This document shows, piece by piece, positions 32,506 through 54,480 of a stretch of DNA of 64,000 bases; the first letter of the stretch is position 1; each line of letters opens with the position of its first letter. The notes under the pieces are model-generated. The model was given only the letters and a program-made list of their open reading frames with translations, did not search any database and was not told the DNA's origin. The translations under genes were made by a program, and so were the position numbers. Location of the stretch: contig NZ_CP049742.1 of the NCBI RefSeq assembly GCF_015482585.1, positions 1,136,501 through 1,200,500 of the forward strand, written 5' to 3'. Source of the DNA: Mangrovibacillus cuniculi. Its GTDB lineage: Bacteria > Bacillota > Bacilli > Bacillales > R1DC41.

Positions 32506-34023
32506 TTAGCCTATTTGACGATCGTCCATTTTCCCACTCTTTCCCTGGTCTTTCAAGATTAAGTCTGCCGTCAATTGACCTGATAAGCACACCATAGGTA
32601 CTCCTCCACCGGGGTGAGTAGACCCTCCTACAAAATAAAGATTTTCTACATGAGCCGAACGGTTAGGAACTTTAAATCCTCCATTTAACTTACGATCCGT
32701 AACAGCTCCATAGATGGAACCACCGTTAGATCCGTAAAGTTGTTGAATATCATTCGGTGTAAATTGATATTCCCATTCAATATGTTGACGTAAGCCTGTA
32801 ACTCCCATTCTTTCTAGCTTGTTTAAAACAAGTTCACGATAGGAATCTTTATACACATTCCAATCTTCTCCATCTTTTAGTGGTGGAACATGTGTTAATA
32901 CAAACAAATTCTCTTTTCCATCCGGCGCTTGCGTCGAATCAGATTTACTAGAAATACCTACGTATACGGTTGGATCATCTGTAATTTTCCCTTGATCAAA
33001 CATTTGCACGAACTCTTTCTTTTGATCTTTCGCAAAGAAGAAGTTATGGTGTTTTAACTCAGGATACTCGCGATTAACACCTAATAATAAAACTAAACCT
33101 GATACGGTAGGCTGGAAATCTTGAAGCTCTGACAACGCCTGTTGTTGTTTTGGATAGTCTGTTAAAAGTGTTTGGTGAGCAGGTATCGCTTCTAAGTTAG
33201 ATACTACTAAATCAGCAGGAACTACTTCTCCTCCGTTAATAGTTACACCCGTAGTTCGATTGCCATTCACATTAATTTGTTCTACCTTTGTATCAAGCAC
33301 CACTTTCACTTGTAACTCTTCTAATAAACTTTTCATCGCTTCGGCTATCTTATACATACCACCTTGTACATAATGCACGCCCACACCGACTTGAACGTGA
33401 GCAAGCTGTGATAAAACTGCTGGCGCATTGTATGGGGAAGATCCAATATACATGATTAAAAAGTTCATCAGTTGCTGTAAGTACTTACTCTTAAAATATT
33501 TTCTAGTAGCTTGATCCATTGATTTTAAAGGATCCATTTGTAATAACTCTCTTAAAGAATGCAATTGACGTAGATCTGGTAGACCAGAAATACTTTGATG
33601 ATAAAAGCTCTTTTTATTTAATTCATACATTTTATTTGCATAAGATAGATAGTCTAAATAAGCATTTTTATCTTTTGGAGCTACTCGCTCTATTTCTTCC
33701 ATCATTTCAACTAAATCTGCGTGTAAATCCAATTTAGTACCGTCCTCAAAGAACGTTCTCCAACCTGGTTCTACTCTAGTAATAGTTACGTAATCATGCA
33801 GATTCTTTCCTGCTGAAGCGAATAATTTTTCCAACGTCCAAGGCATTGTTAAAATAGAAGGCCCTGTATCAAAGGAATACCCCATCCCTCCACGGACGTT
33901 CAACTTTCCACCTAACCTCTCGCCTTTTTCCATGATTGTTACATCATAGCCAGCTACAGCTAGACGAATGCTCGCACTCATCCCAGCAATTCCTCCACCA
34001 ACCACTACTACTTTCTTCTTCAT
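32506..34023 (-). CDS. crtP: CrtP-like 4,4'-diaponeurosporene oxidase (CrtI/CrtN family)
   Basis: A 505-aa FAD-dependent carotenoid desaturase or oxidase. The FAD motif is VVVVGGGIAGMSASIRLA, FDTGPSILTMP is near residue 50, and the C terminus has YFVGGSTHPGGGVPMVCLSG. LKHHNFFFAKD, DDPTVYV, and TPNDIQQLYGSNGGSIYG with GFKVP follow the CrtP (terminal methyl oxidase) branch more closely than CrtN, from memory of the S. aureus proteins. It would oxidise the chain end of a C30 carotenoid. ATG 34023 follows GGAGAG; the frame opens further upstream without a ribosome site. It is divergent from the crtQ-crtO fusion. Confidence 0.8.
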   Translation of the reverse strand: MKKKVVVVGGGIAGMSASIRLAVAGYDVTIMEKGERLGGKLNVRGGMGYSFDTGPSILTMPWTLEKLFASAGKNLHDYVTITRVEPGWRTFFEDGTKLDLHADLVEMMEEIERVAPKDKNAYLDYLSYANKMYELNKKSFYHQSISGLPDLRQLHSLRELLQMDPLKSMDQATRKYFKSKYLQQLMNFLIMYIGSSPYNAPAVLSQLAHVQVGVGVHYVQGGMYKIAEAMKSLLEELQVKVVLDTKVEQINVNGNRTTGVTINGGEVVPADLVVSNLEAIPAHQTLLTDYPKQQQALSELQDFQPTVSGLVLLLGVNREYPELKHHNFFFAKDQKKEFVQMFDQGKITDDPTVYVGISSKSDSTQAPDGKENLFVLTHVPPLKDGEDWNVYKDSYRELVLNKLERMGVTGLRQHIEWEYQFTPNDIQQLYGSNGGSIYGAVTDRKLNGGFKVPNRSAHVENLYFVGGSTHPGGGVPMVCLSGQLTADLILKDQGKSGKMDDRQIG

Positions 34024-34157
34024 GACATTCTCTCCTTCTTCTTTCAACTTCTCTCTACTCTTTTTTGACAAAAAAACTGAATTTCATAACTATCAAATAG
34101 AAAAAGGTTTTTGAACCTACATAGTTGGTAAGAATGATAGAAAAAGGAGGTATAGTA

Positions 34158-35705
34158 ATGATTTGGACTTTTATCGTTTTAATAGGGTTACACGTTTTAC
34201 TATTTTCAAGGGTTAACATGTTAAAGAGTCGTCATTCCAATCAATCGTCCGAAGCTGTGTATACGATATTAATTCCTGCTCGTAATGAACAACATAATCT
34301 GATCACTCTATTACCAACAGTACTAGGTCAAGAGTTAGTAAAGGAAGTAATTGTGATTAATGATCAGTCAACCGATAAAACTCGAGAAGTAGCGGAATCA
34401 TTTGGTGCTACTGTTATTGATACACCTCCTCTACCTCAAAATTGGATGGGTAAATCATGGGCTTTATGGAATGGAGTTAACTATGCAACAGGCAATCACT
34501 TTATCTTTTTAGATGCTGATACATGGCTTAAGCCTGAAGCGATAAAAAAAATCGATACTGCATTCTCTAAACAACGTTACCAAGGTGCCATGAGCATTCA
34601 GCCTTACCATGAGATGAAGAATTGGAAAGAACGCTTTTCCATCTTATTTCATTTCATTACAGCTGCTTCAACAGGCTCCACTCAATTATTTCGTTCAAAA
34701 GATTCAACCGTAGGGGGGTATGGTCAAGCACTTGTTATGAACCGTAATACATACATTGGGATTGGTGGTCATGAAGCGATTCACGAGGAAGTCGTAGAGA
34801 ATCTTGCTTTAATTCAACAAGTAAAATCAAGAAACTTGCCAGTTCAAGCGTATATTGGGAAAGACATTATTCATATGAGAATGTATCCGAATGGTTGGTC
34901 GGAGCTAGTAAATGGTTGGAGTAAGAGTTTTGCAAAAGGAGCCATGATGACAAACTCAGTTATGCTGTTTTTAATTTCCATTTGGCTAACGTTTTACTTC
35001 ACAGCAGCGATGGAGATTTTCCACATTACGGACCAAGTATCATTTTCGATTTGGGCAACTTTCATGCTTAGTTACTCTTTCTTATTTTGGATGCAAGCTA
35101 ATCTGTTCGGAAAAATGAAATGGACGGATATGTTTCTTATCCCTCTCTTTTTCTTTGGTTTCCTTTACATCTTTACTCGTTCTGTATGGAATGGTGTTTT
35201 TAATAAAAAACGGTTTGGAAAGACCGGACGATTAGTGGAGGAAATTAAGAAAATGGGATGGGTAGGCTTAGTATTGTATTGGGGATGTTGTCAACTACTC
35301 ATTGCTTTATGGAGTTCTTCTTGGTCATATTCAGCAATACGGAGATCTTTCTCTACGAATAAGTGGTTATATCCAAATGATAGAGAGAAAAGCCTTTATC
35401 AAAAACTCCGAATCTCTAAGTGGAAGGATATCTTGCCAGATGCAGGTGGTTGGTTCTCTTCATCCCAAAGTAAAAAAACAGTAAAACGCGATGAAATAAA
35501 TAGTTTCTTTTACGAAACGGTCCGTGCAGAGCAATCACACTGGCTACAAATTTTACCTGTATTTCCTTTCTTTTGGATGAATGATACTGTTCTATTATGT
35601 TGGATGGTATTATACGGTGTCCTAGTAAATGTTCCTTTTATCTTTATTCAGCGTTATAACAGAGCTAGAATTTTGCCACTCTTAAAAAGGAGCATCATTC
35701 GTTGA
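34158..35705 (+). CDS. CrtQ-CrtO fusion: carotenoid glycosyltransferase plus acyltransferase
   Basis: A 515-aa membrane protein. Residues about 30-260 are a GT-A (family 2) glycosyltransferase as in CrtQ: ILIPARNEQHN, VINDQSTDKT, LDADTW and PYHEMKNWKERFS. Residues about 265-345 hold membrane helices. Residues about 370-515 match CrtO, the staphyloxanthin acyltransferase: SKWKDILPD near 420, ETVRAEQSHW near 455 and NVPFIFIQRYNRAR near 495. In S. aureus these are two proteins that glucosylate diaponeurosporenoate and then acylate the sugar. ATG 34158 is set by AAAAGGAGG. There is no internal stop or new ribosome site at the junction. Confidence 0.85.
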   Translation: MIWTFIVLIGLHVLLFSRVNMLKSRHSNQSSEAVYTILIPARNEQHNLITLLPTVLGQELVKEVIVINDQSTDKTREVAESFGATVIDTPPLPQNWMGKSWALWNGVNYATGNHFIFLDADTWLKPEAIKKIDTAFSKQRYQGAMSIQPYHEMKNWKERFSILFHFITAASTGSTQLFRSKDSTVGGYGQALVMNRNTYIGIGGHEAIHEEVVENLALIQQVKSRNLPVQAYIGKDIIHMRMYPNGWSELVNGWSKSFAKGAMMTNSVMLFLISIWLTFYFTAAMEIFHITDQVSFSIWATFMLSYSFLFWMQANLFGKMKWTDMFLIPLFFFGFLYIFTRSVWNGVFNKKRFGKTGRLVEEIKKMGWVGLVLYWGCCQLLIALWSSSWSYSAIRRSFSTNKWLYPNDREKSLYQKLRISKWKDILPDAGGWFSSSQSKKTVKRDEINSFFYETVRAEQSHWLQILPVFPFFWMNDTVLLCWMVLYGVLVNVPFIFIQRYNRARILPLLKRSIIR

Positions 35706-36712: not shown

Positions 36713-37287
36713 TTACGAAAGGTGACTTTTCGATGGAGATTTCTTTGTTAAAAGAATAGATCTTAGTGCCAAAGCAGCTACATAGACTAAAAAAACAGGG
36801 ATGAATAGCCATGGCTGCTCACTTGCTATCGGGAAGTACCAAAAACCTAATAGGAAATATCCACATGCCCATAGTGTAACCGGCAAGGTGGAATATAAGT
36901 AAAATGTTTTAACCGAAATCCCCTTCACTCCAGCTAAAAAAGGAACAGCTAAACGAAGACCAGGTAGAGATATAGAGAGTATTAGTGCTTTATCTTCGTA
37001 CTTTTCAAATGTCTTTTCCGCTCTTTTCCACCACTGTTTAGTAGACATTTTGTAGCTGCCTGACTAATGCCTCTACCAACCCCGAAACATGTAGATACTA
37101 CAGCTAATAAGCTCATTATTGTCATGACAAGTGCAGGAATGGGTTGCACTACAGACATTCGAGACATCCAGCCACTTGTCATCACAATTACTTCGTTCGG
37201 CAACGGCAGTCCTATTAGTCCAATAAAACCAAATAGAAAAATGCCTAGGTAACCTGCTTTTTCATATAAAGAGATTATTGTGTCCAT
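36713..37287 (-). pseudogene. DedA family membrane protein, apparent single-base frameshift
   Basis: Two overlapping frames encode the halves of a DedA protein. The first (from ATG 37287, AAAGGAG upstream) gives MDTIISLYEKAGYLGIFLF ... LPNEVIVMTSGW ... FGVGRGISQAATK. The second gives MSTKQWWKRAEKTFEKY ... SLPGLRLAVPFLAG, which is the conserved second half. Adding one base to the T4 run at 37048-37051 (A4 on the coding strand) yields a continuous 191-aa protein of normal DedA length. DedA proteins are flippase-like and support membrane lipid balance. It could be functional if the indel is a sequencing error. Confidence 0.8.
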
Positions 37288-43385: not shown

Positions 43386-44713
43386 TTATAATGCAGCTAA
43401 AGCAGCTTGATTTAGAATATTCCAAGGCTTGTTAAAGTGTGGTTGGAAGAAGAAATCAACAAATCCTAGTTCTTCTACAGTCATCTTATTTTGGATAGCG
43501 ACAGACATGGTGTTTATAGATTGAGTCATATCTGCTTTTGATAACACTTGGGCTCCTAAAATTACTCTTGTTTTCGGATTAAATGTTAGCTTAAATAACA
43601 CATCTTCTGTAGTAGGCATAAAACCAGGACGATCCGTTTCACGAACAATTACATGATCTACTTCTATTCCTTGTGCAGCTGCACTAGTCGCTGTTAAACC
43701 TGTAGAAGCCATACTTAAATCGTAAAGGTGCAAGCCTGACGTACCTTGCGTACCCATATATCTAATCGATTTAGACACAAGGTTTCTAGCTACCAACGTA
43801 CCCATTCGTACTGCATTCGTTGCAAGAGGTATATATTGTGTTTGACCAGTTGGATTATAATGGATTGCACAACTATCCCCTGCCGCTAAAATATCTTCAT
43901 TAGATGTACGCATGTACTCATCCACTTTTATAGCACCGTTAGGCATCATCTCTACTTGCCCTTCTAATAGAAACGTATTTGGTTTAAAGCCTACACATAG
44001 AACAACTAAATCAACATCATAGGAGCTTTTATCTGTAATTACTTTATTCACTTTTCCATCTTTACCTTCAAATTTCTTAACGGTTTGTTCTAATGCCAAT
44101 TTTACTCCCCGATTTTCAAATTCCGTTTCGACTGGATCTGTAAATTCTTTATCGAGATATTTATTTAAGATACGATCTGATGCATCAATTAGCGTTACGT
44201 CTTTTCCATACTGTTGAAATGCTTCAACTAGTTCAACACCTATATACCCCGCTCCAATAACTGCAATTTTCTTCGCTTCTTTCGCTTTCTCAATAATCAT
44301 TTGTGCATGGCCATAATTTTTACTTAACAAAATGTTTTCTTGGTTTATTCCTTCGATGTTGGGAACTATCGGCCAAGAACCTGTTGTCATGACTAATTTA
44401 TCGTACGTGTCAGTAAACACTTCTCCAGTAGTTAGATTTTTCACATCTAATTCTTTTTTCTCACTTCGAATTTCCATTACTTCATGAAGCATGTTCATGT
44501 TTATGTTTGCTGAAGACATTTCTTCAGGAGATGAGTAAAATAGTCCTTGAGCATCTTTGACCACACCCCAACATACAAAGCAATACCGCATGATAAGAAT
44601 GACACATTATCATTTCTTTCATAAACCGTGATTTCTGCATTTGGATGCAGGGAACGAATATTTTTTGCTGCTGCTGTACCTGCGTGTGTAGATCCTACAA
44701 TAATGACTTTCAT
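43386..44713 (-). pseudogene. nox: NADH oxidase (water-forming Nox / CoA-disulfide reductase family), apparent frameshift
   Basis: A flavoprotein split into two frames. The first gives MKVIIVGSTHAGTAAAKNI ... VSFLSCGIALYVG, including the redox Cys. The second gives VVKDAQGLFYSSPEEM, VIGAGYIGVELVEAFQQYG (NADH site), AGDSCAIHYNP (FAD site) and the C-terminal DFFFQPHFNKPWNILN. One more base in the C4 run at 44576-44579 (G4 on the coding strand) joins them into 442 aa, the family length. The enzyme reoxidises NADH with O2. FNR-like sites lie upstream, consistent with redox control. The indel may be a sequencing error. Confidence 0.85.
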
Positions 44714-44744
44714 ATTTCATCCTCCTAGAATGATAACTGTTATA

Positions 44745-52801: not shown

Positions 52802-54480
52802 TCAAAGTTTAAATTTAGACACAGATTCTTTTAAAGAGACAGCATCATCTCTTAAAGTTGCCGTTTCTTGATGAATATTATGAACATATTGCGCTGATTG
52901 TTCTGTGGAAGCTGAAATTTGTTCCATTCCTGCTGCTGTCTCCTCTGCAATAGCTGCCAAATTTTCAATAGCTGCATTTACTTCCTTCGTTTCGTCTAAA
53001 ATTGCATATAGCTTACTAGACATGATATCTATTGCGTTTGTCACCACGTTTACTTCTTCTGACATCCCAGCAAACTGTTGATCCATTAAACTCATTTTGT
53101 GTGTTCCTTCTTTAACTACTACATACCCTTTTTTCAAAGTGGTGGAAACTCCGTGAGAGCTCTGCTGAATCGCCATGACAATAGAAGAAATATCAACCAC
53201 AGAAGCAGAAACTTGCTCCGCTAATTTTCTTACCTCATTGGCTACAACTGCAAAACCTTTACCATGCTCTCCTGCTCTTGCTGCTTCAATGGAAGCATTC
53301 AACGCAAGTAGGTTTGTTTGCTCAGCAATATCTTGAATGACATGCGTCAACCTAGTAATATCCTTCGTTTTTCGTTCTAACCCCTCTACTTCCCTTTGTG
53401 CATCAGACATTTGAGTTGCAACTTCGCTAACAACACTAATCGTAGAGTTTAGCGTTTCTTTTGCTAAATTAGTTGCTTGCACCATTTGTTGAGCTGAATT
53501 TTTTATCCCTACTCCATCTGTTGCAGTAGTCATGATTTGGGTCGCAAAATCATTCACCTGTTCCGTTAACTTTTGTTGGTCGTTCGACTGTTGTTCTACT
53601 CCATTGGTCATTTCTTCCATGGTGCTTGCTACTTGATCTGCATTAGCTCTGATGGCGGAAGATTGTTCGAACACTAATTGAACTCTTTGTAATACATTGC
53701 TCGATGAAAGTGTAGTCTGTGAAACAATAGTACGCAAACTATCCGTCATACTGTTAAGCTGTTCAACCATTTGACCTACTTCATCCCTAGATTGAATTTT
53801 TAACGGTTCACTCGGTAGTTCTCCATTTGCAATTACATTCAATCTACTTTTAATAATCTTAATGGGACTAACGATACGGTTAGACAGCACAAGTGCACCT
53901 ATGAATGTAAAAGTAAGAGCGATTAACGTGATAATGATACTTGTTTGAATTCCTGCCTGAGCACTTTTCGTTGTTTGCTCTGACAGTGTTGTCATTTCAC
54001 TTTTCCTGCTGGTTGCTCGCTCCTTAAATCCTTCTTCAATTTGCACTGCAAGCGGTTGCACTTCTGTTAATAAATTTGTTTGAGCTTGTTCAATGTTACC
54101 GAAATCATAAGGAGAAAAGACTTTTTTTGGACAGCATCTCGAAATGCCGTTGTAAGAGCTATTAATCTAGTTAACTCTTCACTAGGATTTTTTTCTGTCA
54201 AAGTCGTTTGTAGTTTATTAGCTTGTTCTGTTAATTGCTGAAACCTTTCTTTATACACTGGATCACCATATAATATGTACGCGCGTGTGACAGAAATGCG
54301 TTCTGCAACGTTTTCTCGTAACGCTTCATCCTGTAATAATAGAGGCATATCAGACGTTAGTATTTCTTGTTGCTGTTTGCTAATGGACGAAAAAGTCCAA
54401 AGCTGATAGCCCATGACACTTAGTAAAATAATAAATACCCCGATAAAGCTAGCTACCAATTTCCCCCTCAAGCTTCTCAT
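52802..54480 (-). pseudogene. Methyl-accepting chemotaxis protein, apparent single-base frameshift
   Basis: The N-terminal frame (from ATG 54480, AAGGAGATG upstream) has a membrane helix at residues 8-28 and a helical sensor domain. The second frame continues the sensor, then a second membrane helix, a HAMP domain ([16 protein letters not shown]) and the signalling domain with hairpin tip [19 protein letters not shown]. Adding one base in the T7 run at 54122-54128 (A7 on the coding strand) joins them into 559 aa, normal for a receptor. The sensed signal is unknown. It may be intact if the indel is a sequencing error. Confidence 0.85.

Follow-up and report, generated by a model that had tools for sequence, protein, structure and literature searches.

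Two adjacent genes probably underlie an apparent CrtQ-CrtO fusion in Mangrovibacillus cuniculi

The glycosyltransferase CrtQ and the acyltransferase CrtO of Staphylococcus act in this order in the staphyloxanthin pathway, as summarised in PMC8502411. A plasmid operon of S. equorum carries genes for CrtO, an oxidoreductase, a glycosyltransferase, a synthase and a desaturase. In the window analysed here, a stretch of 64,000 nucleotides of the Mangrovibacillus cuniculi contig NZ_CP049742.1, translation of the letters as given showed a single open frame of 515 codons without an internal stop at 34158-35705 on the forward strand, which an earlier note read as one CrtQ-CrtO fusion protein of 515 aa. 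Apparent fusions of this kind serve as evidence for functional links and for substrate channelling. The open frame exists as described. However, the C-terminus and the stop codon of the glycosyltransferase lie out of frame and the acyltransferase has its own ATG, which argues against a single gene. The locus is best explained by two adjacent genes joined into one frame by an assembly error at a run of six A residues (A6), a reading to which we assign a probability of about 0.9 from the sequence comparisons below.

Both domains named in the earlier note are present in the translated frame. The Pfam profile search placed a GT2 glycosyltransferase domain (PF00535, 1.4e-23) at residues 36-181, and FLDADTW at residues 117-123 is a DxD-type motif; a GT2 domain with such a motif marks a CrtQ-type glycosyltransferase. 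The CrtO domain (PF18927, 3.3e-27) lies at residues 400-511 and covers positions 7-123 of the 123 in the profile, and its score of 95.7 bits against a curated Pfam cut-off of 27.3 places this part in the CrtO family. The motifs SKWKDILPD, ETVRAEQSHW and QRYNRAR, quoted earlier as signs of the acyltransferase, were all found in the translation of 34158-35705, with similar motifs in CrtO relatives. The in-frame part of the glycosyltransferase extends over 34158..35210 (+) (residues 1-351, ending in SVWNGVFNKK) and is 30-43% identical to the CrtO-adjacent glycosyltransferases of relatives. The boundary between the two parts of the fused frame lies at residues ~351/366 rather than after residue ~370 as previously placed. 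The CrtO-family acyltransferase, 150 aa from its own ATG (MGWVGL...LKRSIIR), occupies 35253..35705 (+) and is colinear with the stand-alone CrtO proteins of relatives from the first Met onward.

Comparison of the C-terminal tails of homologous glycosyltransferases showed that W[KR][GDE]R is present in all 53 distinct tails, with a Ser exactly 12 residues upstream of it in 51. The in-frame reading in the window is SVWNGVFNKKRFGKTGRLVEEIKKM, in which the Ser is present and W[KR][GDE]R is absent. An alternative frame, which opens within the A6 run (35205..35210, +), reads KTVWKDRTISGGN followed by a stop and carries WKDR. If the in-frame SVWNGVFNKK is continued in register with KTVWKDRTISGGN, the Trp falls exactly 12 residues after the Ser (S-x11-WKDR), and this register is kept only across a frame change at the A6 run. 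The out-of-frame tail with its stop (35207..35248, +) scores 19.7 bits on the 53-tail profile, compared with a maximum of 12.1 bits when the same 150 bases were shuffled 2000 times, and W[KR][GDE]R occurs in none of the 106 alternative frames of the homologs. The conserved tail motif of the CrtO-adjacent glycosyltransferases is thus found solely in the out-of-frame reading after 35210. The stop codon TAA (35246-35248) is followed by 4 bases and then by the acyltransferase ATG at 35253. A GGAGG resembling a ribosome-binding site (35237..35241, +) lies 11 nt upstream of this ATG. The TAA, the GGAGG and the ATG are arranged as at a normal gene junction, and the out-of-frame tail, the stop and the start are undamaged.

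The same gene order was found in relatives. In the fetched loci, 39 distinct glycosyltransferase genes have a separate CrtO acyltransferase gene immediately downstream, and none of these 39 pairs is fused. The distance from the glycosyltransferase stop to the CrtO start is mostly -4 to +15 nt, and 13 of the 39 pairs share one frame with a stop in between. A gene for a CrtI/CrtN-family desaturase or oxidase (TIGR02734, 4.7e-120) lies divergently at 32506..34071 (-) in the window, with a start perhaps at an ATG near 34023, and synteny places a divergent crtI-family neighbour also in Metabacillus lacus and Cytobacillus spongiae. In both species, which share the divergent layout, acyltransferase sequence begins directly after the glycosyltransferase and is read in a different frame; the open frame of the acyltransferase itself appears interrupted in C. 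spongiae. A stop and a new start between the halves, named in the earlier note as evidence that would speak against a fusion, are therefore present in the relatives and, one frame off at the A6 run, in the sequence itself.

Under the two-gene reading, the glycosyltransferase gene would run from 34158 to the stop at 35246-35248 and the acyltransferase gene from the ATG at 35253 to 35705, and the two would be translated separately. The 515-aa frame would arise from the apparent length of the A6 run close to the 3' end of the glycosyltransferase gene, with one base most probably lost from the run in sequencing or assembly. The errors that remain in long-read assemblies are typically one-base losses from homopolymers. 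The preference for an error over a mutation is drawn from the pattern of other breaks in the genome, in which a one-base homopolymer loss relative to the frame required by homology also splits five other genes. Three of these are in the window: a DedA gene (A run near 37030, within 36985-37063, -), an NADH oxidase/CoA-disulfide reductase gene (G run near 44570, within 44480-44720, -) and a gene for a methyl-accepting chemotaxis protein (MCP; A run near 54128, within 54070-54166, -). The DedA and MCP breaks were placed by family and frame continuity and not by a full-length relative, and all three are apparent one-base losses. The annotation of the genome is to be read with these three homopolymer-split genes in mind. 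Apparent one-base losses at G runs also split the GT2 gene of a third carotenoid-type group (L073 ~10000, -) and a GntR-family regulator gene (L087 ~5832).

Including the A6 run, all six breaks are losses and none is a gain. Gene-breaking errors in long-read assemblies show a similar bias, as the indels are mostly false deletions and are tied to homopolymers of 2-8 nt (PMC12007338). Homologous sequence of this genome contained 3 frame breaks in 194 kb, and that of four other genomes contained 1 in 506 kb once multi-copy short ORFs with breaks, which are probably insertion sequences, were excluded; the genome-wide excess is only suggestive. An unsupervised frame-switch scan based on hexamer composition, an insensitive method, showed no excess over a control genome, and a first homology scan against one reference genome found no breaks with too few orthologs.

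A true and very recent frameshift is improbable. The A run would really be six bases long, the glycosyltransferase tail would have been lost, and translation would read on into the acyltransferase, which may additionally start at its own ATG. The given letters do read through, and homopolymers are hot spots at which true frameshift mutations also preferentially occur. A break also affects the genome's second carotenoid glycosyltransferase and might reflect relaxed selection on glycosylation. However, the out-of-frame tail, stop and start next to the A6 run are intact, and the DedA, MCP, NADH oxidase and GntR genes, which are unrelated, are broken alike. It is likewise doubtful, to much the same degree, that the A6 run is real and that a bifunctional glycosyltransferase-acyltransferase is made, perhaps along with a separate acyltransferase from the internal start. 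If so, a gene fusion would have been caught at birth through a single-base change.

It is very unlikely that the locus encodes a stable and functional CrtQ-CrtO fusion enzyme in which the glycosylated carotenoid is channelled. The two domains lie in one open frame, the adjacency and order of the genes make such a joining easy to evolve, and in 13 of the 39 relatives the two genes share a frame, with a stop between them. However, the fusion lacks the tail that all 53 homologs conserve, which is intact out of frame, and none of the relatives carries a fusion. PF18927 was searched in partly overlapping samples of the order (399 genomes), the class (400), a sister order (261) and the phylum (399). 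Inspection of the longest frames among ~190 CrtO-family matches in ~1,200 genomes revealed no second glycosyltransferase-CrtO fusion, and a scan of named genomes and plasmids returned unfused relatives only. A Rosetta-stone argument calls for complete domains in frame and a fusion conserved in at least one relative; here the tail is lost and no second fusion was found. As the fusion is in all likelihood an artefact, the confirmation of the pathway in the Rosetta-stone sense and the channelling of the glycosyl carotenoid between sites, both proposed in the earlier note, fall with it and gain no support from the locus. Programmed slippage at the A run, yielding separate and fused products, is hardly credible. 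The switch point does coincide with an A run, and homologs often have 5-6 identical bases immediately ahead of the motif, but such runs are frequent in A+T-rich DNA in any case. In the relatives the two genes occupy different frames or have a stop between them, so that slippage at this point would yield no conserved fusion.

Several long frames from the searches were rejected as glycosyltransferase-CrtO fusions. The genome G274 has an apparent fusion of CrtO with a type-2 IPP isomerase (IDI-2; L040 1393-2940, +), joined by one base. In two sister genomes the G run is one base longer and the genes are separate, and on this comparison the joining in G274 looks like a one-base artefact. In G344 the long frame is an open extension and overlaps, in another frame, the glycosyltransferase gene upstream. 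A different and recurrent fusion, in which the CrtO domain is joined to a CDGSH iron-sulfur/Fer4_19 protein, is present in G997 and G1143 and, judging from frame length, in G1238 (L215 3481-4653, -; L216 4754-5938, +; a frame of similar length in G1238, L217). The carriers are small Bacillota genomes of several species in one genus, and a fourth genome (L218) has separate neighbours. Judged by its recurrence, the CrtO-CDGSH fusion looks real. Just upstream of the glycosyltransferase-CrtO pair, a nitroreductase-MsrA two-domain protein is encoded in L218 (1568-2917, +) and L216 (2198-3553, +), and the nitroreductase and MsrA are separate genes in L215.

Elsewhere in the M. cuniculi genome, a phytoene/dehydrosqualene-synthase-like gene (SQS_PSY, 8.0e-73) lies beside two adjacent crtI-family genes (C1:629716-633461). 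CrtM-like and CrtN-like genes are thus present, as expected for a C30 carotenoid pathway; the NCBIfam profiles gave no equivalog-level call for the synthase that would set C30 apart from C40. The third carotenoid-type group (C1 ~1238070-1242130; L073 8071-12131, -) encodes a CruF-like protein, a PlsC-like acyltransferase, a GT2 glycosyltransferase whose frame breaks at a G run, and a CrtI-family enzyme, and resembles the C30 clusters of Planococcus and Paenibacillus. By analogy with Staphylococcus, the glycosyltransferase and the acyltransferase of the window most likely act in sequence on a C30 carotenoid. The glycosyltransferase would add a sugar to the C30 carotenoid carboxylate, and the acyltransferase would then esterify the sugar with a fatty acyl group; this order and these substrates are taken from Staphylococcus, from the families of the two proteins and from the gene content of the genome. 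A functional link between the glycosyltransferase and CrtO is supported by the neighbouring position of their genes in 39 relatives and requires no fusion.

A carotenoid pathway is not proven by the pair, since Bacillota genomes in which no SQS_PSY match was found also carry it. In 11 CrtO-carrying Bacillota genomes outside the class, taken from the phylum sample, neither an SQS_PSY match nor a CrtI-family match above the curated cut-off was found. A GT2 relative adjoins the CrtO gene in seven of the eight loci examined in those genomes, and CrtQ-type glycosyltransferase and CrtO pairs of this kind occur in L211, L212, L214 and L215-L218. The pair probably also acts on a lipid other than a carotenoid, judging from these gene contents.

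A one-base homopolymer error between tightly packed genes can yield a convincing false fusion in which both domains score above their curated cut-offs, and such a fusion is exposed by a conserved C-terminal motif one frame away. The second case, the CrtO-IDI-2 joining in G274, suggests that false fusions of this type are not rare in genome collections. The long-read homopolymer deletion errors described in PMC12007338 are likewise one-base losses in short homopolymers with a uniform direction; however, they usually split genes, whereas the case in the window joins two. The likeness to the CrtQ and CrtO proteins of the staphyloxanthin pathway lies in the families and the presumed order of reactions. 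The glycosyltransferase of the S. equorum operon is ~30% identical to that of the window, but in the operon another gene lies between the two and their order is opposite, whereas in the window the acyltransferase gene directly follows the glycosyltransferase gene. The Bacillales pairs, including those of M. lacus (L010) and C. spongiae (L076), share with the window the gene order, the WKxR tail and the glycosyltransferase's own stop, and differ in that the frames in the window are joined by the A6 reading only.
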